The translations under genes and the position numbers were made by a program. Positions 12,587 to 57,526 of a stretch of DNA of 64,000 nt are shown in pieces. The notes beneath the pieces are model-generated. The model did not search any database. It worked only from the letters and a program-made list of their open reading frames with translations, and was not told the origin of the DNA. The number at the start of each line of letters is the position of its first letter. Position 1 is the stretch's first letter. This stretch comes from a virus: the IMG/VR virus record IMGVR_UViG_3300026519_000009, positions 1-64,000 of that record; one strand, given 5' to 3'.

Positions 12587-15500
12587 GTGCCGAGTGATAA
12601 TAAAACAGATTATATGATAAAATTTATGGATTTACTGGAATTATTACCAGAGCCATATCAATCTGATGTTAATATAAGTGTAGTTAATAACCTTTTTAAT
12701 CGTTTTTTAACGAAAAAAGAGACGGTGCGCGTCTCTGGTTATATTGGTGTTGGTAATCAAAATGCTCTTACCCCTAGACGAATTAAAGAAAATGATATTC
12801 ATCGTCAAGCGTTTCAACTTCAACCAATATTATATGACAAAATTGGTACAATTGAACACATGGCATCGTGGAAGGATATTCAAAATGAAACGACACGACT
12901 TGGAATAAACATTGACGATTTTGCAACGTGGGGCGCAAGTGAAACCTTTAATTGGGTGCCACCAATTGATATCAATAAGATTATTAACTATCGTGACTAT
13001 TATTGGGTCGATACCGTAGGTAGTCAACCACAATATATTACCGTTCGTAGTCGCTGCGCAGTAGCGACAAGTCTGGCAAACTTTTGGGGGCAAATAATAA
13101 CACAATACGGTGAATTATTTCCAATAACTGAAATACGTGAGATTGACGACACCAGTGCATTACAAACATATTCTATTGTGTCGATTAATACAGGCACTGG
13201 TAATGTTGTTATTACAGGTGATGCCACAACCGATATTGTTAATGGTAATTTTTTTAACATATCATCAACATTAAACAACAATGGTACCTACCAAGTAAAT
13301 ATGGCACCGGTATATGATGGTGTTACAAACACTACAACATTAGACGTAAGTGGTTTAATTGCGGATGAAAATATTGGATTAGTAACACTTAGACGATATG
13401 ATAAGCTGGTGATTGGTCCAAATGACAATACACCTACCGGTGATTATAGTACGCTATTTGAAGAAGGGTTTGTTTTTTTTATGAGGCAACCAACAAACCC
13501 AGAACAAAATAATCAATTTGTAACGGTAATTAGTTCAACGTTTGACCCAAACAATGCAAACACAATAGTTAAGATCGGATTAACAACTACCGATAATACT
13601 GTGGCAGCTAGTAGTATGGTTTCATTGGTTGAACAAAATGCAATATATGTCGATGCCCGAAATTGTCAATGTGGCGTTGGGGTAGATGGCTGGGATGATG
13701 GTGTTTTATGGGACGATAACCCATCTAATCCAATATGGGGGGATGCGGAAGGTGCATTAGGGTCACCCATCCCTGATGGAATTTCGGATTATCAAAATTT
13801 AATTAATCGCATATCAAATGCCGGTCCACCTGCTTTGCCGGGAATTCAAAATGAATTATGGTTTGATACCATTGGTGATATATTATATCAATATGATACG
13901 GTAGGCGGTTGGAAGATCATTTGGAACTCTTTTAGTACATTACTATCCGATGTAACCGGACAAGTATTATGGGATTTATCGCAAAATTGCGACGAAGCCA
14001 TTCGTATACCAGCCATGGATCAATGGATTCTTGAAAATAAATGGGTTCATAAAAATGATATAACTAACTTTGCTTCGGTACGTAGAGCCACCCAACCTAT
14101 TATAGAATATGACTGGGACTTAGAGTTAAACGAATGGACATTTACCAAATATCGCTGGGGATACCGTAGTGAAACAAATGGTACCTTCATAGAAACAACA
14201 GAACTTCCACCTTTTATAGAATTAGAAGAAATAGTATGGTGGGAACTGGATACTACTGATATTACGAATAGTACTGTAATCCTTGACTCGCGTTATGGTG
14301 ATCAAAGTGCCTGTTTCGCAGCAAACACCCGATTTCATATTGGTAACACTATTATTAATGAAGTTGACTATGTTGAATATAAAAAACCGTCAATTGCCAG
14401 TATGTTCCCATATAGAACATATGTGAAATTTAAAACACCAATCGTAGGGTCAACCGGTGACTTTAGTATAGGAACCCCTAATAGTTTGTCATTAACACCA
14501 GTTGTAACAAAACAAGGTGATCTTTGGGGAGGATACGGTGTTCATTGGATATTTTTAGGCGCAAATGATACAGTACCTGTTCCACACCAAACGGATAATC
14601 CTGATGTTGCAATTCTGGATACTGCGTTGGTGTCTACTATTGGAAGTCCTCCTATATATGAAACACGCGAATCATTATATGCGCAAGAATTTCAATTATT
14701 AGCACCATCTACAACAATATTGGAATTAAGTAATATTGTTCCTACTAATGATACTAGATCATTACAAAGAAAGGCATTGTATAATTTCGATGATATTCGT
14801 GTTTATTTAAGCGATATCACAAATGGAAATATTGTTCGTCAATTCGGAACGTATGAAGAAATAGGAGAAGTTGTTGTCGATATTATCGGAATCGATGACG
14901 TATTAAACGAATTTATAATAGGTGAAGACTATTCAACATTATATACAGCAGGGGATACAATACGATTACAGGAAAATAATACGGTTGGTACACAAGACTA
15001 TACGGTTGCGGGCGGTGCGTCAAATCCTAATCGTATTCGCGTAACAACCGCGCTTGCCGGAATATCCATAACCGGACAAATAGTGAATATATCGAATCCT
15101 GTTACTACCGAATTATATCCAAATATCGATTTCGTAAATACACGAAATATTTCAATTTATGTTCGAGGGATACGCTTCTTAACCCCTGTGTTAGGCGGAC
15201 AAAATGTTACAATAGAAGTCGGTGAAGCATCAATAAATGAATTAGACCGTCATGCACTTAGAGTGCGCACTATTGAGGATGAAGCACAATATAATATTGT
15301 TGGTGACTTAGCTATTAGTACAATAAAATATAGAAAAGTTGAACAAGTAAAAACAAGTGACAATCAATATCCTTTATTTGATATTTTTACAGCAACGGGC
15401 GAAGCTGCAAATCGTGCCAATCCTATATTTGGATATAAAACGTCAAACACCGCTCCTATTAATCAAACAGGACTACGAATAGTTTTCGATGCAAGCACGC

Positions 15501-18500
15501 TGGTATATGAATTTGATCAATTTATTTTAGATGCAGATAATAGTGAATTATTTGCATATCGTGACTATTCTAATAAAAAAACAGATTTTTGGTATAATCC
15601 AGAAACAAATGAAATGTTGTTCTGGCACGGCACCGAATGGAGCAGTCGCACGGCGATGTCTGAGCATTATAGAAATGCTGTTATTAGTAGTATTGAACCG
15701 TCATTAATTGACCGCGCAATCAATGGCCTATATTGGTATAACACTACAACAAATACGCTATTTATTAGATCAATAGACCCAATATCCAATATTGGTACGT
15801 GGAATCCAATATTGGATATTGATACCACGACGACTGATACCAATTTACAAACAATATGGAAAGGCGGGTTGAACAATGATCAATATGTGCCTGAACGTGT
15901 TGATTGGTTAAATAGAACAAATAGTGAATATAATACTGAAATGTCTGCCTTTATTGACGGTAGAGTTAATACTTTATTGACGGGTGACACAACCCTAAGT
16001 ATCGCCGACGCAACAACGCAAGCATCCATTGATTGGTTTACTAGTCAGGAAAATGTGTTGTCACCGACCGGCATATGGGTCGGTGATTGGGAAATACCTG
16101 ATCCCTTATATCATAATAATTTACACGAAAATAAGAAATGCATTACAAGTAGGGACTTGTTAACACATTTCACCACCATTATTGAAAGTCAACCGACGAT
16201 TCCCGGATTTAATGGTGATAAAAACGCAATGTTCAATTTAATTCCAACGACGGGTGTTAATTTTGCACTAGGCGGTACAATAAAAGAATTCAATGATGGT
16301 TTCGATACTTTTCTATCTTCAACCTTCGTAAATAATGTAACACCTAGACGATTAATTGAGTTCGCGCATGATCAATATGAAAGTTTATTGAATAGCATTA
16401 AAGAAAGTTATCGGGCAAATGCGGTGCGCCTATTTACCGATTTATCCCCTAATAATATAGTAAACATATCTGGTTATATTTCAAATGAAATAATAGCTAT
16501 ACACGAGTTAAATGATGCGGCGGCATTTATATATGGGGATAGTACGACATTCAATGATATCCCCGGTGCCAATGATCTTGGTGTTCGGAATTGGATAGCA
16601 ACATTACCGTATTTGCGTCTATTGCATCGAAGATTGCCCGTTAGAATAATTAACGAGGTATTATCGCTGGATGAGATAATACATCACGATGGTCATCGGG
16701 GGGCATATTCATTAACCGATACTGCGGAAAATGTAATTGTTCAATTAATTATTAATACTGATGATAATCGAAATGGGATTGATACTTTAGGTAGAAATTC
16801 AATAGCAAACCCACCGAATAATATAGCTGATTTTGCTGCCGAATTTAATACCGATGCGAATAATCGCGGTGGTGTTTATTGGTGGAACACGACAACAAGT
16901 ATATTATATCGCTATACCGTAGCTGAATCTGGAACAAATACACCTATATTAGATTATCCTGATGGAACGCTATGGATGGATTTAACGCTTGGTAATGAAG
17001 TACTACGCATAAAATCAACAAGTACGAGTGGTGTGATATCTTGGGATGTCGCTGATGGATTATCGGTAGGCGATGGAAGATTTCATAATGGCACAACGGT
17101 TAATGATTTTAACACGGCAACAGTATCCACATGGCAAGAAGTTAACTTAAATAATTTATTGGGTGACCTTATATTCGAGCTTGAAACCCGTCTGTATAAT
17201 AATGCACCCAATAATCCGCAACTTAGCTATAATACCTCATTAGTGGAAACAACGTATCCGAATGACCACGCATTATATTTAGAGCAGGCATTTTTAGATC
17301 ATGTATCCCAACTAAATATACAAACCCCATATCAAAATACAGCGTTCAATATTTCTGATCCATTTACATGGAATTATAAGCATTCAGCAGGAGGCGGTGG
17401 GTTCGCTATACTCGAGGCGGATGGACTTACGAACTCTTTTTTAATATCGGGTAATCAATTATTCTTTTTTGATCCATGTTCGGCCTCCGCCACCGGATCA
17501 CCGATAACATATCCTGCATGTGTTCCAGGGGGGACAACAGCTACATTTTATATTAAAAACTCAGGCGGAAATGATGGAATTTGGACAACATTAAGTTCAA
17601 CCGTCGGTGATTTTACCGCATTCTATGATATATTAACCAATACCACCAGGATTTTTGTCCAAGGCAATGTGATGGATGATGCTACAGGTATTATTCATAT
17701 TGGATTATTACCAAGTCAAATATCATCAACAACGCCAAACAATCTAAATGATGGTTCGGAATCTGGTGGTGACTGGCGCGACTTGTATACCAAGTTATAC
17801 AATACACCATATCCAAATTTAGAACCATGGAAATTACAGGGCTATATCGATAAACCAACGTGGTGGGATGCGGAATATCTTAACACAAATGCATTACAAT
17901 GGGGCGACCGCGTATGGAAGTATAAGCACGGGTTTGAACTTATAAGTGCCGACAACTTAAGTAATGATAGTGTAGATGGTATACACGGTTCATTTAATAT
18001 TTCTGGAAACTTTAATACTGTTTTTACAACAGGTCATTCGTTTACCATAGATTCATCAATCGGATCACCGAATAACGATGGTACGTATATCACAGGTATG
18101 CGCGAAATAATTACTAATGTTAATATAGGTAGTGCTGGTACTGCATCTATAGAAATCGATGATGTCAGCAATTTAGCAACTGCGATATATCTACCGTCAA
18201 TGATATTTTCTGTAATTCAAACACCTGTTCTACCAGCAATAAATAATACAATTACAAAAACATATTCAATTACCAGCGTAAATAAAATAGGCTCCATATT
18301 TACAATAGCGGTAGCGGAAGAAATATTGGTTGGAGATATTATTCCAGCAACAAGTGTTATTAATGGAGCATTATACTTACCAACGTCCAACATCACTAAA
18401 GTGAAAATAGCTGGTGCCGTGACAACCAGTAGTGGGAATGGAAGACTAATAAAATCCGATAGTTTTGGACTTGGAATGTGGGAGAACATAAGGATTGGTG

Positions 18501-21500
18501 TAATTCCTCCTAACCGTGAATATCCAAATGGTATAGTTGGTGTCACCGGCAATCCATCAATAGATACATTAAATGGTTTGTCGGTACCTGATTTACCAAG
18601 ATTTAGTTACTTCAGTGTCAATATTGATAATAGTAATGTTAGTTCGGATGGAGGAATGACTACGTATGCACCTGATGGATTACTCCCTCCGTTTTGGGAT
18701 CATACCCAGCAATTTGGAACTACATTAATATCGTTCGATAATTTGATTCGAACAGTATTTTTTAACTTTAGCACAGAAATAATAACACCTAATATTGATT
18801 TTATATTTGGTGATGCCGGGCCAGTTGAATGGGAATGGAGAGTTTCATCACAATTTTTATATGATCAGTTAACTATAGCGTATAGAATTGATCCGGTCAG
18901 ATATGTGTCATCAACGTTCGGCTTCAATTTAACAACAATTGCTGGATTACAAATAGACCGTAATATAAGAAACACTCCCAGTCATACGCGAACTACATTT
19001 CATGGTGATATTGCAAATAATACACCAGTAGTAAGCAATGGAACGAATCAATGGTATGTCAATTTTAATCGTTTTACCGGTTATGACTCTAATTTTTCCG
19101 ATTTTAACCAGTTATGGACGCAATGGACCGCACCACTTAGTTACCAGTTTGCTTCGTTTATTGATACGCCATCTTTAAGTATTGGACATCGGTTTGTGTC
19201 AATTTCTGAGTTCGACTATAATATAGCGGCAAAACGCTCACCCGGTGTTAATGATTATTGGTTAGACGCATTTAATGTTAATATTATACAGATACCGTTT
19301 GATATTCAACGATATGATAATCAGTTGGAATGGCGATTTGAACTATCTACTAATATAAATATTAGTAGAGAAATCAACTATTACGATGTACGAAATTATC
19401 AATTCTATGCCAATCCTATAACAAATGAATGCTTGTTATACACATGGGAAATTGAGTCTGTAAATGCATTCAATAAAGAATTTACAATATTGGGCGATCA
19501 AACCTATGTGTTTTCCGCAGGAAGGGAATTCACAATTTCGACATCGAGTGGTAATGATGGTACATATACAACAACACGGGCAAGATATGATGTAAATTCA
19601 AACACCACTACAATAACCGTTAATTCCATAATTACATCAACTGTTGCGAATGGATTGATAACAGCAAAATATCGTTCTTATATGTGGGATACCGGTGATA
19701 GTATTTACCTGTCCACCGCTGAAACCCTTCCCATACCATTAAGGGGCGATAACGCAAATGGCCTAACCGAATATTTTATTATAAAAATATCTGATACCGT
19801 ATTTAAAATTGCAAATACTCCACAAGATGCAATAACAAATACCCCTATTGTAATTACATCAACAGGAAGGCGCGATCAATTCGTAGGCGAAATAACAAGC
19901 ACATTCCTTGCGCCTAACTCAACCACTAATTGGAGAATATATCGCATAGATGAATCATCTTCACGAAAATTTAATACACCATATCAAGTGCAAGGATTTC
20001 AAACACTTATTGATATAGTTCGTGGCTATGCAACATTTGCAAATGATGTTGGGTGGGTATTCAATGAAGACAACTCACTTCGTGATCCCGATACTACGCG
20101 AGTCGTAAATTGGCAGGTCGAATTGGAACGACTAATTACATATGCTTACGGTAATCGTCAATTGCGCAGAAGCATTAATGATAGGTATGAGGTATCCGTA
20201 AATTCATCAACCGATATTTGGACATTTATTGAACCGAATCAATCGTTTATAACGGGCGATATAATTACTGTATTATCTTCTAATTCTATATTTCCGGTGC
20301 CGATTGCAAATGGTCTCAATTACTTCATAATCCGAGATTCCATAACTACATTTAGAATATCTGCAACTAGGCAAGATGCGCTAAATGGTATAGCACTTAA
20401 TATTTCGGCATCAAGTGGCGTAGGAACATTACAAATATCAACACCGAATACCAACGCTAATATCATTCAGCCTTTTGAATTAAATGCGTTTAGAAATGCG
20501 GCATGGTTGAATACGCCTACCGGAATTGTTTCCAATGTAATTACCGGTCCAAGTGAAGATATTAGAACCAATCAAACTATTTTTAATCAGAATGGTCAAC
20601 AGATCAGCGAATCGCATTTGAGGGTGTATCGCCAAGATAAACAAACAAAAATACAAATAATAGATGTTGATAATCCGGTATCAAATAATAATAACCCATT
20701 ACTTTCACAAGAATATAGTAATATTAATTTAGGTGGATTGCATTTGTTTACCGATTCATACGAACACATCATGATATTCAACAATTATAATACTGATGGC
20801 GTATTGCTGTATGATCCATTTATTGGGTTAAATGTATCGAAGTATGAAATGTTATTCAATAAACAGCCAGAATTTCTACATAGACCATCGGTTGGTGGGT
20901 ATACTATTGAAACATTTTTCAATCAAGGTACAAATTTAACCGAAAATATAGAAGCAAGCATTGAGAATCTTAGGTTTGCACATGATACCTATACTAATTT
21001 AGAAAGTAATTTAATGACTACACATTCAAGATTATCATTGGGGTATGAAGGAATAACCGATTATTTACTTAATCTAAATCTTTCCGAAAAATCACAATTT
21101 ATTTTTTGGCGTGGTCTTATTCAGTATAAAGGTTCGCGCAATGCGGTACAAGCATTTACACATTCAAGACGGTTTATTGATGCACAGATTGACGACTTCT
21201 GGGCAATAAAAGTTGGTGAATTTGGTAGTGTAAAGGAAAAAGAATATCCTGAGATATTTGTAACAACTTCCGATGCGCGATCAAATGAGCTTCGCCTCGA
21301 ATTTATAGATAATGATGCATTAGATACAAGCGTAGAAAGTACATTTACGCCAATTAAACTATCAAACGAAGAACGATGGTATAACCAGCCTGATCAAGTG
21401 CATATTTTACGTGATAAAGGAAATGCATTATTTTTTGATATGATTGTGAATAATTCAATAGTATGTTCGTTAACCCCTGGATCGCCCTCTAACTTAATTG

Positions 21501-23632
21501 AATCACCGGGTACATTCAATAACAAACTATACATTCGACATGATCTAGATGCAGATGCAATTGCAATTACTCATTTTAATAACACAACCAATTTATTAGA
21601 AACGTTGGTATTGGGGGTTGACTATAATATTATTAACAATAACATAATTGAATATATTATTGGACCACCAAGAGATTCAATTACAATCTGGGGAATGTTA
21701 CAGAATAATGATGCACAATCACCTGCACGAATTATTGATCACGCCTCGGAAACGCAAATTTCTCCCATTCAATTCTTTGATCCGGCACGGGGTATACATT
21801 ATTCTAATGCTATTCATAATATTGATTTGTTGAATGATACCGATCCCGCGCAATATACGAATACCATTAAAAATCAACCAATGGGTTCACCAGCAACCAC
21901 AGTTATAAATTCCACAATTTGGGAAAAATCATTTATTGGAACGACTTGGTGGAACACCAATAATTTAGACTATGTTCCTTATTATAGTAAAGAAATGCTA
22001 CCTAACACAACCGAACGATTCCGCAATTGGGGTGCGTTGGCTGATTGGTCAACCGTTTCCATATTTGAATGGGTTGAGTCAAACGTTCCACCGGATGAAT
22101 GGGATATTCTAGCGTTAAGTGAAGAAGGTGATTTATCAATACCAGAACACATACGCAAGTCAGGAACCGCTCGGCGCGTGTTATTTGAACAAAATAATGC
22201 AGGGGGTTTTATTGTTGCAGTTGATAAAATCGAAGAACAATATGTGGCGACTGAAGGAACAGAAACAGCAACCACGTTTGAATTTTCAGTTCCAGTTGGA
22301 AACTTTAAAGAAACGGGTAGTCCGCTCATGTATATTGTTGATGTATATATTAATGGAAAATTATATAAAGAGAATGATATCTTAACCTTTCCATATATTG
22401 TCGATAAGGTAAACATTAAAGAAGCCGATATTATTCACTTCGTTCAACCGATTCCAACCGATCAGACTATAATTGATGCTGAAATAATAGCGGGTAATAT
22501 GCGACAGGAGTATGAATTTTCCAGAATAACAACCTTTAATGAAATAGGCACGGAAGTAACAACATATTATTTTTGGGTAGAAAATAAGAAAACTAGACCC
22601 ATTAATCGGAATCGTTCAATGTCAATATCTGAGGCCGCAACCCAATTAATAGACATTCCTTCGGCACATATGTTTTTTCAAGAAGTACGACCGACCGAAA
22701 CAATAACATTGGATGATACAATACTACCACGAACCGAATTACATACGGTAATTGGTGGTAGTCCGATAGCTACCTTTTATCCGACAGATTTGCCAATTGC
22801 GTCAACCACCAATCTTTTAGTGGAAGTTAATGGCGTGGATTTACCGAATAATGGTATATATTTTACAGTGGGGGGGTCGCCCAATGGAATTACAATGATA
22901 AACCCACTCCCAAGTGGTAACAATTTAATGGCAGGTGACATTATACGCATATCATATAATGGAGTGAATACCAATTCACTAATATTACCATATCGTCAAA
23001 CCCAATGTATTATTCGTGGATTGCAAGGTATAGTGAATGCGGATCGTAGATATACTATTAGGTTCACGCGAGACTTCACTTTGCGTGATAACTTAACTAT
23101 TGTTGATAATGATGAACATATACAATTAAACAACGTACACGAAGAATGGAAGTTATTCAGGGAAAGTCAGCAATTTAACATTGATCGATATATGTGGGAT
23201 AATATAACGGAATCCATTGTTAAATTTAAGCTATTGCAACCAAGCGTGCGCGTTCCATCATTTGAGCGCGAATTATATGATTTACAATACAACACTGATA
23301 CACAATATGGTCTGGAAGACGGACAAGCCTTCGTAAATGGTGAGTTGGCGCTGGGTAGCGTATTGGGATATTTAAATGATCCAAATGTGGACTTTTCGCC
23401 AATAGATATTAATGCCTTTTTTAATAACAATAGTTTTGATACACCTGCTGAAATAATTATTGCGATGGATACTATATATAATACATTTTTATTCACCGAT
23501 GTGAATCGAATATTCTTCTCTGTGTTGGCTGATGCTTTTAGTACAAAATCTAAATACCCAGGATTGTTTAAAACATCAATGGTAAGTTTACATGGGGTGC
23601 AACCATTTCAAACCGCGTTATTTGATGATTAA
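12587..23632 (+). CDS. giant baseplate/tail virion protein in the gp7 position
   Basis: 3681 residues from a GTG start with GGAGAG upstream. It lies right after gp6, where T4 has gp7 (1032 residues), so a wedge or tail-tip role is likely. The N-terminal region has SETFNWVPPIDINKIINYRD and YYWVDT (about 126-148), a pattern I associate with very large structural proteins of marine T4-like phages. Several beta modules of a GD...NDGTY...TTITV type occur at about 203-255, 1610-1700, 1800-1860 and 2295-2350; they recur in the next gene. Trp/Tyr-rich repeats (YWWNTTTS) also occur. No enzyme motif is seen. The frame is unbroken over 11 kb. Confidence 0.8.
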   Translation: MPSDNKTDYMIKFMDLLELLPEPYQSDVNISVVNNLFNRFLTKKETVRVSGYIGVGNQNALTPRRIKENDIHRQAFQLQPILYDKIGTIEHMASWKDIQNETTRLGINIDDFATWGASETFNWVPPIDINKIINYRDYYWVDTVGSQPQYITVRSRCAVATSLANFWGQIITQYGELFPITEIREIDDTSALQTYSIVSINTGTGNVVITGDATTDIVNGNFFNISSTLNNNGTYQVNMAPVYDGVTNTTTLDVSGLIADENIGLVTLRRYDKLVIGPNDNTPTGDYSTLFEEGFVFFMRQPTNPEQNNQFVTVISSTFDPNNANTIVKIGLTTTDNTVAASSMVSLVEQNAIYVDARNCQCGVGVDGWDDGVLWDDNPSNPIWGDAEGALGSPIPDGISDYQNLINRISNAGPPALPGIQNELWFDTIGDILYQYDTVGGWKIIWNSFSTLLSDVTGQVLWDLSQNCDEAIRIPAMDQWILENKWVHKNDITNFASVRRATQPIIEYDWDLELNEWTFTKYRWGYRSETNGTFIETTELPPFIELEEIVWWELDTTDITNSTVILDSRYGDQSACFAANTRFHIGNTIINEVDYVEYKKPSIASMFPYRTYVKFKTPIVGSTGDFSIGTPNSLSLTPVVTKQGDLWGGYGVHWIFLGANDTVPVPHQTDNPDVAILDTALVSTIGSPPIYETRESLYAQEFQLLAPSTTILELSNIVPTNDTRSLQRKALYNFDDIRVYLSDITNGNIVRQFGTYEEIGEVVVDIIGIDDVLNEFIIGEDYSTLYTAGDTIRLQENNTVGTQDYTVAGGASNPNRIRVTTALAGISITGQIVNISNPVTTELYPNIDFVNTRNISIYVRGIRFLTPVLGGQNVTIEVGEASINELDRHALRVRTIEDEAQYNIVGDLAISTIKYRKVEQVKTSDNQYPLFDIFTATGEAANRANPIFGYKTSNTAPINQTGLRIVFDASTLVYEFDQFILDADNSELFAYRDYSNKKTDFWYNPETNEMLFWHGTEWSSRTAMSEHYRNAVISSIEPSLIDRAINGLYWYNTTTNTLFIRSIDPISNIGTWNPILDIDTTTTDTNLQTIWKGGLNNDQYVPERVDWLNRTNSEYNTEMSAFIDGRVNTLLTGDTTLSIADATTQASIDWFTSQENVLSPTGIWVGDWEIPDPLYHNNLHENKKCITSRDLLTHFTTIIESQPTIPGFNGDKNAMFNLIPTTGVNFALGGTIKEFNDGFDTFLSSTFVNNVTPRRLIEFAHDQYESLLNSIKESYRANAVRLFTDLSPNNIVNISGYISNEIIAIHELNDAAAFIYGDSTTFNDIPGANDLGVRNWIATLPYLRLLHRRLPVRIINEVLSLDEIIHHDGHRGAYSLTDTAENVIVQLIINTDDNRNGIDTLGRNSIANPPNNIADFAAEFNTDANNRGGVYWWNTTTSILYRYTVAESGTNTPILDYPDGTLWMDLTLGNEVLRIKSTSTSGVISWDVADGLSVGDGRFHNGTTVNDFNTATVSTWQEVNLNNLLGDLIFELETRLYNNAPNNPQLSYNTSLVETTYPNDHALYLEQAFLDHVSQLNIQTPYQNTAFNISDPFTWNYKHSAGGGGFAILEADGLTNSFLISGNQLFFFDPCSASATGSPITYPACVPGGTTATFYIKNSGGNDGIWTTLSSTVGDFTAFYDILTNTTRIFVQGNVMDDATGIIHIGLLPSQISSTTPNNLNDGSESGGDWRDLYTKLYNTPYPNLEPWKLQGYIDKPTWWDAEYLNTNALQWGDRVWKYKHGFELISADNLSNDSVDGIHGSFNISGNFNTVFTTGHSFTIDSSIGSPNNDGTYITGMREIITNVNIGSAGTASIEIDDVSNLATAIYLPSMIFSVIQTPVLPAINNTITKTYSITSVNKIGSIFTIAVAEEILVGDIIPATSVINGALYLPTSNITKVKIAGAVTTSSGNGRLIKSDSFGLGMWENIRIGVIPPNREYPNGIVGVTGNPSIDTLNGLSVPDLPRFSYFSVNIDNSNVSSDGGMTTYAPDGLLPPFWDHTQQFGTTLISFDNLIRTVFFNFSTEIITPNIDFIFGDAGPVEWEWRVSSQFLYDQLTIAYRIDPVRYVSSTFGFNLTTIAGLQIDRNIRNTPSHTRTTFHGDIANNTPVVSNGTNQWYVNFNRFTGYDSNFSDFNQLWTQWTAPLSYQFASFIDTPSLSIGHRFVSISEFDYNIAAKRSPGVNDYWLDAFNVNIIQIPFDIQRYDNQLEWRFELSTNINISREINYYDVRNYQFYANPITNECLLYTWEIESVNAFNKEFTILGDQTYVFSAGREFTISTSSGNDGTYTTTRARYDVNSNTTTITVNSIITSTVANGLITAKYRSYMWDTGDSIYLSTAETLPIPLRGDNANGLTEYFIIKISDTVFKIANTPQDAITNTPIVITSTGRRDQFVGEITSTFLAPNSTTNWRIYRIDESSSRKFNTPYQVQGFQTLIDIVRGYATFANDVGWVFNEDNSLRDPDTTRVVNWQVELERLITYAYGNRQLRRSINDRYEVSVNSSTDIWTFIEPNQSFITGDIITVLSSNSIFPVPIANGLNYFIIRDSITTFRISATRQDALNGIALNISASSGVGTLQISTPNTNANIIQPFELNAFRNAAWLNTPTGIVSNVITGPSEDIRTNQTIFNQNGQQISESHLRVYRQDKQTKIQIIDVDNPVSNNNNPLLSQEYSNINLGGLHLFTDSYEHIMIFNNYNTDGVLLYDPFIGLNVSKYEMLFNKQPEFLHRPSVGGYTIETFFNQGTNLTENIEASIENLRFAHDTYTNLESNLMTTHSRLSLGYEGITDYLLNLNLSEKSQFIFWRGLIQYKGSRNAVQAFTHSRRFIDAQIDDFWAIKVGEFGSVKEKEYPEIFVTTSDARSNELRLEFIDNDALDTSVESTFTPIKLSNEERWYNQPDQVHILRDKGNALFFDMIVNNSIVCSLTPGSPSNLIESPGTFNNKLYIRHDLDADAIAITHFNNTTNLLETLVLGVDYNIINNNIIEYIIGPPRDSITIWGMLQNNDAQSPARIIDHASETQISPIQFFDPARGIHYSNAIHNIDLLNDTDPAQYTNTIKNQPMGSPATTVINSTIWEKSFIGTTWWNTNNLDYVPYYSKEMLPNTTERFRNWGALADWSTVSIFEWVESNVPPDEWDILALSEEGDLSIPEHIRKSGTARRVLFEQNNAGGFIVAVDKIEEQYVATEGTETATTFEFSVPVGNFKETGSPLMYIVDVYINGKLYKENDILTFPYIVDKVNIKEADIIHFVQPIPTDQTIIDAEIIAGNMRQEYEFSRITTFNEIGTEVTTYYFWVENKKTRPINRNRSMSISEAATQLIDIPSAHMFFQEVRPTETITLDDTILPRTELHTVIGGSPIATFYPTDLPIASTTNLLVEVNGVDLPNNGIYFTVGGSPNGITMINPLPSGNNLMAGDIIRISYNGVNTNSLILPYRQTQCIIRGLQGIVNADRRYTIRFTRDFTLRDNLTIVDNDEHIQLNNVHEEWKLFRESQQFNIDRYMWDNITESIVKFKLLQPSVRVPSFERELYDLQYNTDTQYGLEDGQAFVNGELALGSVLGYLNDPNVDFSPIDINAFFNNNSFDTPAEIIIAMDTIYNTFLFTDVNRIFFSVLADAFSTKSKYPGLFKTSMVSLHGVQPFQTALFDD

Positions 23633-23640
23633 CCAAATAG

Positions 23641-23705
23641 CCGAAATGCCACCACCAATTCAGCAAGCCGAATTGGTGGTGGCATTTCGGAAAATTAGAT
23701 AAATA
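23641..23705. repeat. hairpin-promoter cassette, copy 7
   Basis: A perfect 21-bp stem, CCGAAATGCCACCACCAATT plus C (23641-23661) with 23670-23690, then GATAAATA (23698-23705) facing the next gene rightward. Confidence 0.85.
23698..23705 (+). promoter_or_regulatory. late-promoter-like GATAAATA
   Basis: 35 nt before the ATG at 23741. Confidence 0.5.
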
Positions 23706-23740
23706 TAATATGCAACATATAAAATAACCGGATATTCTAA

Positions 23741-30403: not shown

Positions 30404-31303
30404 TTACTGATTATTCACAATGTCAACGAGCTTGCCAAGATGATCTTTGGACTGACGGCTCTCTTTTGTGCGTTTTTGGCCTCCTTGCAACGCATGGCGA
30501 CCATACTCTTTTAAATTATTTGCTGCATTAAAATCACGATCCATATTAACACCACAATCACAACTATACAACCGTTCCGACAATGTTAAATCGTTTTTTA
30601 ATTGTCCGCAGCCACTACATACCGCGATTGCTTCCTTTCTTCTTTCGTGCCATTTCCGTTGCAACCGTGCCAACCGATTAAGATTGGATTTAAGGCATTG
30701 ATTAGCTGGGAAAATTGTCCCATTGCTAATCACTGCCAATTCTTTAATTCCTAAATCAACGCCACCAATTGCTTCGCGGTTATGATCCTGTGGATCATAT
30801 TCGTTGGTTTCAACCAAGATCGATGCGAAGTATTTTCCGGCGTGTTTACTAATAGTAACCTGCTTGGTCTGCCCGGCAAATCGTAATCGTTGCCGCATTT
30901 TTATCTTGGTCTTTAACTTTTCAATCCGTAGTTCTCGGCCAGCCACATCAAACTTTTCCGCTTCGCGCAAGGCAAATGAGTCACGAACACCCCGTCGTTT
31001 GAATCGGGAAAAGCCCGGTGTCTGTCCCTTCTTCACCCGACGAAAGAAATGACTAAAGGCATTATCCAAATCATCAATCGCATTGCGCGTAACACGCGAT
31101 GACACCTCATTGTACCATGGAAACGTAGGTCTAATAACTCTCATGAAATGCTGATAACCAGCAGCTTTCGACCACTTATTCTCTGGATGACTAAAATGCG
31201 CCAGCAATTGATTATAGCAATGCCGCCGATGACCACAGGCCATATCCAAATATTGGATATGGCCTGCTGTAGGTCGCAATTCAATTTTGTGTGCTAGTAA
31301 CAT
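30404..31303 (-). CDS. tnpB: TnpB-family protein, internally shortened
   Basis: 299 residues against roughly 370-400 for full TnpB. The N-terminal domain is normal (HKIELRPTAGHIQYLDMACG). RuvC-I is present as GGVDLGIKELAVISNGT (about 178-194). LNRLARLQRKWHERRKEAIA is then followed almost at once by the zinc ribbon VCSGCGQ...YSCDCGVNMDRDFNAANNLK, so the helical segment and RuvC-II Glu region appear deleted. It is in frame with a promoter-like GATAAATA 5 nt before the ATG. It may be a nuclease-dead or exapted TnpB. Position inside the nrd operon suggests a homing-type insertion. Confidence 0.75.
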   Translation of the reverse strand: MLLAHKIELRPTAGHIQYLDMACGHRRHCYNQLLAHFSHPENKWSKAAGYQHFMRVIRPTFPWYNEVSSRVTRNAIDDLDNAFSHFFRRVKKGQTPGFSRFKRRGVRDSFALREAEKFDVAGRELRIEKLKTKIKMRQRLRFAGQTKQVTISKHAGKYFASILVETNEYDPQDHNREAIGGVDLGIKELAVISNGTIFPANQCLKSNLNRLARLQRKWHERRKEAIAVCSGCGQLKNDLTLSERLYSCDCGVNMDRDFNAANNLKEYGRHALQGGQKRTKESRQSKDHLGKLVDIVNNQ

Positions 31304-31308
31304 AGTAG

Positions 31309-31316
31309 TATTTATC
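31309..31316 (-). promoter_or_regulatory. GATAAATA abutting the tnpB start
   Basis: GATAAATA, then 5 nt (CTACT), then ATG: the start codon would be +1 of a T4-type late transcript. Confidence 0.45.
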
Positions 31317-31435
31317 TACAAAATGTAACACGACTTGTTACATTTTGTCAAGTTTAGTTACATTTTAATCAACTGTTGGCAGCCTTATTATTATTATTGC
31401 ACTATTATGGTTAATATATATTTATATGTTTATCA

Positions 31436-38903: not shown

Positions 38904-39357
38904 TTATTTATCCAATTTGCCGGAATACCACTTCCAAATTCAGCTTGGTGAATTTGGAAGTGGATGGATAGGCACCATTAGGACGATCTTGCACTTGTAT
39001 ATATTGCTTTAATATTTCAATTGGGGCAATAATTAAGTGAATTTAGTTCTTGAATTGATATTTAACTATGGTACACTGTTTATATGAAAAGAGCAATCAT
39101 TCCCGACAAAATAAAGCCATGAAGACTTTAAAAATTCGCGTCAATGACATCAAGCACACGGTTGCCAACAGTATTGAACCAAAGGGGGGGGTTGCGGTTG
39201 CCAACAGTCAATCGGGTGTTGATGGACACAAAACATAAATGATCAACAAAAATAGTAAGTGAAAACGAATTAGTGAAAACACCGAAGACATAATGAGCGA
39301 CCATTGTGCGAATCCACGTTCAAGCGCAGATCGCTGATTTGGTGGTGGTCGCTTCAA
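38904..39357 (+). mobile_element. tnpB element remnant C
   Basis: TTATTTATCCAATTTGCCGG starts the left end (38904), followed by a hairpin at 38928-38963 and the inner left-end signature TGGATAGGCACCAT. The conserved promoter comes next, then tnpB start codons (ATGAAGACTTTAAAA at about 39119) and short scrambled pieces. A right end with a decayed hairpin and TCGCTTCAA finishes at 39357. A run of eight G (about 39184) lies inside. No coding frame survives. It fills the gap 38872-39353. Confidence 0.75.
38905..38913 (-). promoter_or_regulatory. late-promoter-like GGATAAATA
   Basis: Outward-facing from remnant C toward the gp48/54-like gene. Confidence 0.5.
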
Positions 39358-46107: not shown

Positions 46108-46602
46108 ATGGGATTTGTTCTAACACAACCAACAACAGGTAACATAGGCGGCGGGGGAATACCCGGACTAACGGTATCCATGATAAATGGGCAAAACGTT
46201 CTAACATTGGAAGATACTACACGTGGTAATAAAATATTATCTGTTTCGGATAATCCAGTCGTTTTTTCCGAAAATGTATTATCAAACCTTGACTGGTTGG
46301 CCGTTGGTGGGGCAAGGGATGCGGATAGTGGTTTTATCACAACATTAGATGCAACTATTGTTGGCATTTCGGCACATTGTGAAAATACTGGCGGAAATTC
46401 TAAAAATATTCATCTTTTTGTTGATGGTGCCGACCTTGGCTCACTTGGAACACTAGGTGGCGGTACAAATGCAGTGATTAATGATACTATTTTGGATATA
46501 GATATTAATCAGGGACAACGTGTAAGATTACGCGCAGTGGACGGTATACCGGGAAATATCCAAGATACCGTAATTAAACTAACATTAAAGTGGCGCGGCT
46601 AA
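46108..46602 (+). CDS. beta-rich, Gly-rich virion-type protein
   Basis: 164 residues, 16 nt after the previous gene. The N-terminus is Gly-rich (TTGNIGGGGIPGLTVSMING). The remainder is a jelly-roll-like domain (SDNPVVFSENVLSNLDWLAV, then GNSKNIHLFVDGADLGSLGT) with a TIVGISAHCEN strand. Similar domains are found on phage decorations and fibres. The assignment is by composition. Its end overlaps the convergent glutaredoxin gene by 4 nt. Confidence 0.65.
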   Translation: MGFVLTQPTTGNIGGGGIPGLTVSMINGQNVLTLEDTTRGNKILSVSDNPVVFSENVLSNLDWLAVGGARDADSGFITTLDATIVGISAHCENTGGNSKNIHLFVDGADLGSLGTLGGGTNAVINDTILDIDINQGQRVRLRAVDGIPGNIQDTVIKLTLKWRG

Positions 46603-49402: not shown

Positions 49403-49756
49403 TTATTCTACCGGTAATTCCTCGGGTGGTAGACCAAGCTTTTTCTGTAATTCATCCCGCTGCTCGGTATATGCTTTATTTATCACATCGTACTCTTTTA
49501 ACGCACGCTCTAGTTCACGCGCATATCCCAATAACACTTCCAGTGTGGCATGATAATGCTTTACTAAGGCACCGGGTTGAAGAATTTCTTCCTGCGTCAT
49601 ATCATGTATGGGAAGACTGGGGCGTGGTATGTGTGGCGGCTTTGGACTATACAATATAGGAACCAATGTTTCTTGAACTTCGGTCTTTACCGTTATTAAT
49701 TTTCCACCACAGCCAACCATCAATGTCATTAATATAATAATAATTATTTTTCCCAT
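49403..49756 (-). CDS. outer-membrane lipoprotein, candidate o-spanin (Rz1-like)
   Basis: 117 residues. A signal sequence ends in the lipobox MVGC (Cys about residue 16). A Pro-rich segment follows (PILYSPKPPHIPRPSLP, about 32-49), as in Rz1 proteins, then a helical region. It overlaps the upstream membrane coiled-coil gene by 13 nt, the usual Rz/Rz1 arrangement. Spanins fuse inner and outer membranes at the last step of lysis. It is longer than lambda Rz1, so the assignment is by architecture. Confidence 0.65.
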   Translation of the reverse strand: MGKIIIIILMTLMVGCGGKLITVKTEVQETLVPILYSPKPPHIPRPSLPIHDMTQEEILQPGALVKHYHATLEVLLGYARELERALKEYDVINKAYTEQRDELQKKLGLPPEELPVE

Positions 49757-50190
49757 GATATCCCCTTTCGAATATTGCGTAAGTATTCAATACTAGCTTC
49801 GCATGTTGTTGGTGTCTTATTGGCAAGAATTTCATTTACCCTTTTATCGGTATTCACGCGGCTATCCCGTAGTGTATTTTTCAAACTTTTAATATTGTTT
49901 GCAAGGTTTTTTGATATCATTCGCCATTTATCAACTTCATTATTTCTATCAACAATACTGTCGGCAAGTGTATCATTCCCTTTTTTACAAATATCAATCG
50001 CATTATCCGCAGCAGCAAGTCTCTTCGTCAAGCTAGGTATGGTTTCAGCGCCAAAAAATATTCGGGCTTCAAACACATTTTGATATACTATTATAGCCAT
50101 CATACCACCAATGGCAATTGTTTTCCAGTTTGTTATGATAAACGGAACTATACTTTTAAAATTTAAAAGTTTTAATAAGAATAACGGCAT
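49744..50190 (-). CDS. candidate i-spanin (Rz-like)
   Basis: 148 residues. One N-terminal membrane segment (about 18-38, TIAIGGMMAIIVY) is followed by a long charged coiled coil (about 55-130: ERLAAADN-type helix, MISKNLANNIKSLKNTLRDS). This is the Rz layout, paired with the lipoprotein gene that overlaps its end. The start codon and its GGAG binding site lie in the arm of a 23-bp hairpin (50189-50240), so translation is probably controlled. Confidence 0.65.
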   Translation of the reverse strand: MPLFLLKLLNFKSIVPFIITNWKTIAIGGMMAIIVYQNVFEARIFFGAETIPSLTKRLAAADNAIDICKKGNDTLADSIVDRNNEVDKWRMISKNLANNIKSLKNTLRDSRVNTDKRVNEILANKTPTTCEASIEYLRNIRKGISWEK

Positions 50191-50240
50191 AACAGATTCT
50201 CCACTTGATATAATTATATATCAAGTGGAGAATCTGTTAT
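50189..50240 (-). promoter_or_regulatory. hairpin hiding the i-spanin ribosome binding site
   Basis: A perfect 23-bp stem (50189-50211 with 50218-50240, 6-nt loop). On the minus strand the 3' arm contains GGAG (50202-50199) and the first two bases of the ATG. GATATATA (50222-50215), one base from GATAAATA, lies in the 5' arm and loop; a transcript from it would begin near 50209 and lack the 5' arm. Confidence 0.65.
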
Positions 50241-50269
50241 TTTTTGAATTTACTGTTGGCAACCCTAAA

Positions 50270-50322
50270 TTTCCGAAATGCCACTTCCAAATTTGGTTTG
50301 CTGAATTGGAAGTGGTCGCGTC
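50270..50322. repeat. hairpin cassette with truncated left end, copy 18
   Basis: TTCCGAAATG, arms CCACTTCCAAATTTGG...CTGAATTGGAAGTGG, then TCGCGTCA. The TTATCCAAGTTG part is missing, so no promoter is supplied to the spanin pair. Confidence 0.7.
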
Positions 50323-50524
50323 ATTTTCCTAGTTTTTGGTGGATATTCATAAGGTCTGATGAATTTTTTCGTGTAGAATGATATGTTCTATCCAGCTTTA
50401 CACCAGTTTTTTGAAGTTGCTTCTGCAACTGACGCATTACTTTTTCTATTTTCCTAATTTGATCAGCCTGTTTTGATATCAGTTCCGATTGTAGTTTTAG
50501 TTGTTGTTCGATATTAATTTTCAC
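50321..50524 (-). CDS. small coiled-coil protein
   Basis: 67 residues, almost entirely coiled coil (QQLKLQSELISKQADQIRKI, then MRQLQKQLQKTG). No membrane segment. Its start overlaps the end of the upstream membrane protein by 11 nt, and it precedes the spanins, so a lysis-cassette role is possible but unsupported by motif. Confidence 0.6.
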   Translation of the reverse strand: MKINIEQQLKLQSELISKQADQIRKIEKVMRQLQKQLQKTGVKLDRTYHSTRKNSSDLMNIHQKLGK

Positions 50525-51771: not shown

Positions 51772-51780
51772 TATTTATCC
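51772..51780 (-). promoter_or_regulatory. GGATAAATA placing the ATG at +1
   Basis: GGATAAATA, TACAC, ATG for the 51593-51766 gene. Confidence 0.55.
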
Positions 51781-51847
51781 AAGTTGTCGGAATACCACCA
51801 AATTAGCAAGCTGAATTTTGAAGTGGTATTCTGGCAACTTGGATAAA
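51772..51847. repeat. inverted left-end/left-end cassette, copy 19
   Basis: TATTTATCCAAGTTGTCGGA...and the mirror TTCTGGCAACTTGGATAAAA: both sides are left ends, giving a stem of about 23 bp with few mismatches around a decayed core. One GGATAAATA faces left to the 51593 gene; the other side (GGATAAAAA) faces a terminator. Confidence 0.75.
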
Positions 51848-55589: not shown

Positions 55590-55598
55590 TATTTATCC
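55590..55598 (-). promoter_or_regulatory. late-promoter-like GGATAAATA
   Basis: GGATAAATA, GGTTTT, ATG of the 55017-55583 gene. Confidence 0.5.
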
Positions 55599-55667
55599 AA
55601 GTTGCAGCAATACCACTTCCGATTTCAGCTTGCCGATTTGGAAATGGTATTGCTACAATTTGGGTAA
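55590..55667. repeat. inverted left-end/left-end cassette, copy 21
   Basis: TATTTATCCAAGTTGCAGCA on one side and TTGCTACAATTTGGGTAACT on the other: two left ends flank an imperfect stem (ATACCACTTCC...GGAAATGGTAT). Only the left-facing promoter is intact. Confidence 0.75.
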
Positions 55668-55704
55668 CTAACAATAGTCAATCAAACACTAATCCAGACA
55701 ACGA

Positions 55705-57177: not shown

Positions 57178-57526
57178 TTGAAGTGACCACCATCAAATCA
57201 GCGAGCTGTGTTTGGTGGTGGATTCGCACAACGGTCGCCCATTGTGTTTTCTGCATTTCCACAGACCCCTGCTAGTAGCGCTTGGTTTCCCAAGCTGAGA
57301 ATGTTCGTTGCTACATTTACATTGCAATCATGCATTGTTTCACACCCGGAGCATGTACATTCTCTTATTCCAAGACCTGAACTACCTTACTGATAATAAC
57401 ATAGTTAAATGTCAAGTCAAGAATTAAATTCACTTAATCATTGTGTGTTTAATATGTTGCCTGTCCAACCACCATCAAATCAGCACGATGATTTGATGGT
57501 GGTTGGACAGGCAACTTGGATAAATA
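57178..57526 (-). mobile_element. tnpB element remnant D
   Basis: Read leftward: left end GAATATTTATCCAAGTTGCC, a perfect 27-bp stem (57456-57482 with 57489-57515), the ATTAAACACACAATGATTAA inner signature and the promoter. Then fragments of the tnpB C-terminus (the region coding GLGIREWTCSGC-like residues, decayed) lead to the right-end hairpin at 57186-57220 and CACTTCAA. It fills most of the gap 57149-57448. Confidence 0.75.

Follow-up and report, generated by a model that had tools for sequence, protein, structure and literature searches.

The late promoters of phage T4 share the consensus TATAAATA. In T4 gene e, which we fetched and folded, the leader forms a hairpin of -15 kcal/mol. Two copies of this sequence lie in its 5′ arm and loop, and the ribosome site is in its 3′ arm. 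The long RNA supports ∼100-fold less lysozyme synthesis (PMC3014915). Hairpins covering the Shine-Dalgarno (SD) sequence and/or the start codon also limit translation from longer RNAs of I-TevI, soc, and 49 of T4, and of Aeh1 mobE and T4 segB (PMC3014915). The locus described here resembles gene e in that a lysis gene has its SD sequence paired in a leader hairpin, and that the 5′ arm and loop contain a sequence resembling a late core, a start at which would remove the 5′ arm; the comparison with gene e drawn in the first-pass annotation is therefore apt. The two differ in the gene concerned (endolysin in T4, a spanin-type gene here), in hairpin stability (∼-15 kcal/mol in T4 versus ∼-36 for a perfect 24-bp stem), in the number and quality of the boxes (two consensus TATAAATA versus one imperfect core, GATATATA), and in spacing (21 nt between the nearer box and the ATG versus 32 nt). 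The genes of the I-TevI set share the masking hairpin, but are of other types and without sequence homology to this locus.

The stretch of DNA analysed (the window) makes up 64 kb of an IMG/VR virus record with a total length of 76.6 kb. The record probably represents part of the genome of a jumbo phage related to T4, an assignment based on its nearest helicases and its baseplate genes: among named phages, the helicase is closest (∼40% identity) to those of the very large myoviruses Phosso, Atu_ph07, and XacN1, and the baseplate genes resemble those of contractile-tailed phages. The features discussed below are the following:

49403–49756, minus strand: gene for an o-spanin-like lipoprotein of 117 aa, with lipobox LMVGC and a 13-bp overlap with the i-spanin-like gene.
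49744–50190, minus strand: i-spanin-like gene, 148 aa, with an N-terminal transmembrane (TM) stretch followed by a coiled-coil-like region; homologue in L102, syntenic protein in L103 (two large relatives, see below).
50189–50240, minus strand: perfect 24-bp hairpin with loop TAAT; the 3′ arm contains GGAG and the AT of the ATG.
50199–50202, minus strand: GGAG SD sequence, 8 nt upstream of the start codon (50190), all bases paired in the hairpin.
50215–50222, minus strand: GATATATA, a late-core-like sequence (GATAAATA with one change) that covers the loop-proximal end of the 5′ arm and extends into the loop; RNA is predicted to start at ∼50209.
50189–50246, plus strand: strong intrinsic-terminator-like site for rightward (antisense) RNA, formed by the same hairpin and TTATTTTTT at its plus-strand end.
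50257–50326, minus strand: remnant of a hairpin plus late-promoter module, with the hairpin retained and the core ATAAATA replaced by GGTTGCC.
50321–50524, minus strand: gene for a small coiled-coil-like protein, directly upstream of the spanin pair; a similar small gene is found in L102 and L103.
51772–51800, minus strand: late-type promoter module (CAACTTGGATAAATA), the closest intact one upstream and a possible source of read-through RNA.

The hairpin had been annotated as a perfect 23-bp stem. An inverted-repeat check upheld the perfect pairing and corrected the length, the arms (50189–50212 and 50217–50240) being 24 bp each and 100% complementary around a loop of 4 nt. We estimate that a perfect hairpin of 24 bp with a small loop would occur by chance in 76 kb with a probability of ∼1e-8. 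Folding of the minus-strand RNA yielded this hairpin with z = -8.3, and none of 200 shuffles was as good; folded alone, it has an energy of -36.0 kcal/mol. A search of Rfam gave no match. The location of GGAG (50202–50199) and of part of the start codon in the 3′ arm was annotated correctly, and the stem ends with the first two start-codon bases, A and T. In the reading frame of the gene, the ATG at 50190 is the sole ATG, GTG, or TTG ahead of codon 29, and alternative start codons were thereby dismissed. Opening of the start region of the i-spanin-like gene was calculated to cost 31.1 kcal/mol, the highest value among the 82 called genes (median 4.4); the second highest, 22 kcal/mol, belongs to a gene whose start choice is uncertain. 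Poor translation of a read-through RNA is therefore expected, and the folding models make it likely that the hairpin masks the i-spanin-like start. In the predicted folds of RNAs beginning at 50207–50210, GGAG is left unpaired, in line with the proposal that an RNA starting inside the hairpin frees the start.

The i-spanin-like gene and its neighbor have the layout of a two-component spanin, an N-terminal TM plus coiled-coil protein beside a small lipoprotein (TM stretch, coiled coil, and lipobox were judged by eye). Neither protein matched a named spanin family in Pfam or PHROGs, where the sole family match of the lipoprotein was phrog_2291, of unknown function. Spanin families are very divergent, and the genes are therefore termed spanin-like only; the designation is based on anatomy and synteny. 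No close relatives were obtained when the spanin proteins themselves served as queries. Via the terminase, two large relatives carrying the pair were reached, L102 (from G030) and L103 (from G031); both are distant, with 21–28% identity in the pair. The i-spanin and lipoprotein matches had E values of 6e-8 and 6e-10 in L102; in L103, the lipoprotein matched with E = 1e-8 and the protein in the i-spanin position is syntenic. Gene order in both is the same as in the window, with the small coiled-coil-like gene first, and the operon in L103 is headed by a consensus TATAAATA (1296–1303). The small gene and the i-spanin start are separated by 22 nt in L102, by none in L103, and by 130 nt in the window, where the gap contains the promoter-module remnant and the hairpin, the latter beginning ∼80 nt after the end of the small gene. 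Ordinary translational coupling is therefore unlikely in the window. No inverted repeat was found at this position in either L102 or L103. Because these relatives share the gene order and lack the hairpin, the hairpin is probably an innovation of the lineage of the window phage, as far as such distant relatives can tell. Its inner sequence was found exactly in no viral contig, and the repeat is unique within the window. No homologue carrying this hairpin was found.

Upstream regions in this phage are enriched for GATAAATA, embedded in a longer shared stretch, GGTATTYCGGCAACTTGGATAAATA, of which there are ∼25–30 copies, mostly with a hairpin ahead. Exact GATAAATA cores lie 30–50 nt, mostly 30–44 nt, before start codons. 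In the window genome and the related loci taken together, 121 of 597 genes with an SD sequence have ATAAATA upstream; for other orderings of these letters, the median is 9. For jumbo phage CBB, ATAAATA has been published as the predicted late consensus (PMC5259590). Proteins resembling gp55 are encoded in 8 of 14 related records, both spanin relatives included; no gp55 gene was found within the 76.6-kb fragment. Because of the upstream enrichment, the CBB and T4 consensuses, and the gp55-like proteins of the relatives, we infer that GATAAATA is the late core of the phage. As in T4-type phages and CBB, the ATAAATA core is located at the usual distance before late genes (PMC5259590); in contrast to them, the window phage adds a conserved upstream stretch, GGTATTYCGGCAACTTGG, and usually also a hairpin.

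Dispersed copies of this module, for example at 38911 (minus), 43721 (minus), 8830 (plus), 57456–57526 (plus), and 23620–23711, consist of a hairpin and then GGTATTYCGGCAACTTGGATAAATA, directly upstream of genes. The arms of the module hairpin vary while pairing is retained (CCACTTCC/GGAAGTGG, CCACCACC/GGTGGTGG, and CCACCGCC/GGCGGTGG, among others). As assessed by pair tallies on single folds, the stem is retained in 24 of the 27 copies checked, with several pair types per position, and the module looks like a mobile hairpin-plus-late-promoter cassette. Some copies (51774–51847, 55590–55670, and 23620–23711) are palindromic, having a promoter-like end on each strand that faces outward, and should give antisense late RNA. 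A 13–14-bp hairpin with GATAAATA also lies just upstream of a transposase-like gene (phrog_506; 30404–31325), which is located between two ribonucleotide reductase genes, and a GATAAATA core precedes a single open frame of 3681 codons at 12587–23632 on the plus strand. Outside the window phage, the long promoter motif was found exactly in only two other viral contigs, L014, whose terminase fragment is 91% identical to that of the window phage, and L015/L104 (G002).

The near-match to the late core inside the hairpin, GATATATA, is located 32 nt from the ATG, which is within the range of the exact cores. With a T4-like -13 to -6 box at 50222–50215, the predicted start agrees with the previously annotated ∼50209. 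When genes were scored by core, GATATATA ranked 14th, right behind 13 genes with GATAAATA or GATAAAAA. Random 40-mers scored as well as the GATATATA region in 1.8% of cases, and the three edits that separate CCACTTGATATATA in the hairpin from CAACTTGGATAAATA were matched by 2.05% of random genome 52-mers; a chance figure of ∼2% is not strong after a choice among several AT-rich frames. The score of GATATATA also rests partly on one doubtful site, because the altered base, the A at -9, is conserved in 27 of the 28 reference sites; single deviations do appear among listed T4 late boxes (PMC2988020). In relatives, ATATATA was found at 10 near and 4 far positions versus 260 and 241 for other arrangements, a difference that was not significant (p = 0.12). 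A full promoter module in the hairpin was considered and rejected, as the ungapped 33-base motif (PWM) scored poorly; the box shows only a degenerate, gapped likeness to GGTATTYCGGCAACTTGG. A host sigma-70 reading (ATAACA-16-TATAAT, minus strand, 10/12) was likewise rejected, because such sites are about as frequent in shuffles (51 compared with 40 ± 6); if used, it would also start RNA past the 5′ arm. Of the original annotation, masking of the start thus has strong support from structure and energy, and the internal late promoter is only suggestive, with one mismatch at a nearly invariant position, a chance of ∼2%, and the right distance. We put the likelihood of an internal late start at GATATATA at about even.

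Other explanations of the hairpin have to be weighed. On the plus strand, the stem is followed by a T run (TTTTTT, as annotated), which is the arrangement of an intrinsic terminator, and with at least 20 pairs counted it is the strongest terminator-like site within 45.5–54 kb. The element could thus mainly terminate rightward transcription, keeping antisense RNA out of the upstream genes, with spanin masking as a side effect; that late modules can face both ways (51778 and 51843; 55596 and 55664) makes antisense RNA likely in general. However, the plus-strand gene end nearest to the hairpin is at 46602, 3.6 kb leftward, no high-scoring plus-strand promoter module was found between 46602 and 50189, 24 bp exceeds the stem length that termination needs, and a needed gene would be severely impaired by a stem that reaches its start codon if nothing released it. 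Termination as the main role is therefore rather unlikely to us; a terminator role and start masking can coexist. A stem longer than simple masking needs would also suit cleavage of the read-through RNA by RNase III, which prefers a perfect duplex of about 24 bp, or by another nuclease, so that the spanin message would be controlled or freed without an internal promoter. Yet a mid-stem RNase III cut may leave GGAG paired to the leftover 5′ fragment, and T4 e-type hairpins function without such cleavage, which makes this route improbable.

A palindrome recently created by template switching, or else a DNA-level element, in either case without a selected role in expression, would fit the perfect arms and the presence of the hairpin in no relative found. 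Its placement exactly over GGAG and ATG argues against this explanation, as does the expectation that a silent block on the spanin should be selected against; spanins are required for outer-membrane disruption in many Gram-negative hosts. A palindrome of this kind is, in our judgment, also an improbable source of the arrangement. Finally, a short leader ORF exists (TTG at 50262, 13 codons, stop within the 5′ arm), and its terminating ribosome might melt the hairpin in an attenuation-like manner. This is highly improbable, considering the TTG start and weak ribosome site, the frequency with which such short ORFs occur by chance, and the fact that the genuine upstream gene stops well ahead of the hairpin.

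SD-covering stems are not confined to the window. Across 101 loci (1.2 Mb, window genome included), three perfect SD-covering stems of at least 10 bp were found, the spanin hairpin and one each in L040 and L049, the latter two with ATAAATA inside. Under looser rules, ATAAATA was upstream in 3 of 7 SD hairpins and in 118 of 589 of the remaining genes (p = 0.15). The layout is thus seen repeatedly in the related group, its enrichment being statistically not established. Those SD-covering hairpins of the relatives that have ATAAATA within or next to the 5′ arm or loop are located at L040:3640–3691, L049:1888–1928, and L041:6735–6766. The masked gene of L049, as read from its sequence, looks like a homing endonuclease, as is the case with T4 I-TevI, and that locus accordingly resembles the I-TevI-type set.

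The reading we favor for the spanin hairpin is a translational lock on the i-spanin-like gene that would be released by RNA starting within the hairpin. In RNA reading through from upstream, GGAG and the start codon would be folded into the 24-bp stem and hardly translated. It counts against this reading that the nearest mapped promoter upstream, at 51778, is itself late-type; in its favor, no other intact late core is present between the upstream gene and the i-spanin ATG. Late in infection, a gp55-type polymerase would initiate at the GATATATA box, at ∼50209, and the resulting leader of ∼19 nt, lacking the 5′ arm, would leave the ribosome site free. We infer that the box is used, that its use is late, and that read-through RNA reaches the gene; the lock might thereby time lysis, as the first-pass annotation had it. 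For a T4 gene e-type switch, with the lock on the spanin-like gene opened by an internal RNA start, we judge the chances to be evenly balanced. Somewhat more tentative is the wider proposal that disruption of the outer membrane by spanins, the step with which lysis ends, is under its own e-like lock with an embedded late promoter, separate from endolysin control, and that this lock arose where an older promoter module decayed.

To our knowledge, no e-like RNA lock on a spanin gene has been described, and the top-ranked papers from one search of the open literature included none. If the proposed switch is real, a distantly related jumbo phage would have re-evolved the T4 lysozyme trick, there applied to another lysis gene, which would suggest that spanin synthesis, too, must wait until late. 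The hairpin, combining a very stable lock with a single imperfect internal promoter, would then be a clean natural test of such control.
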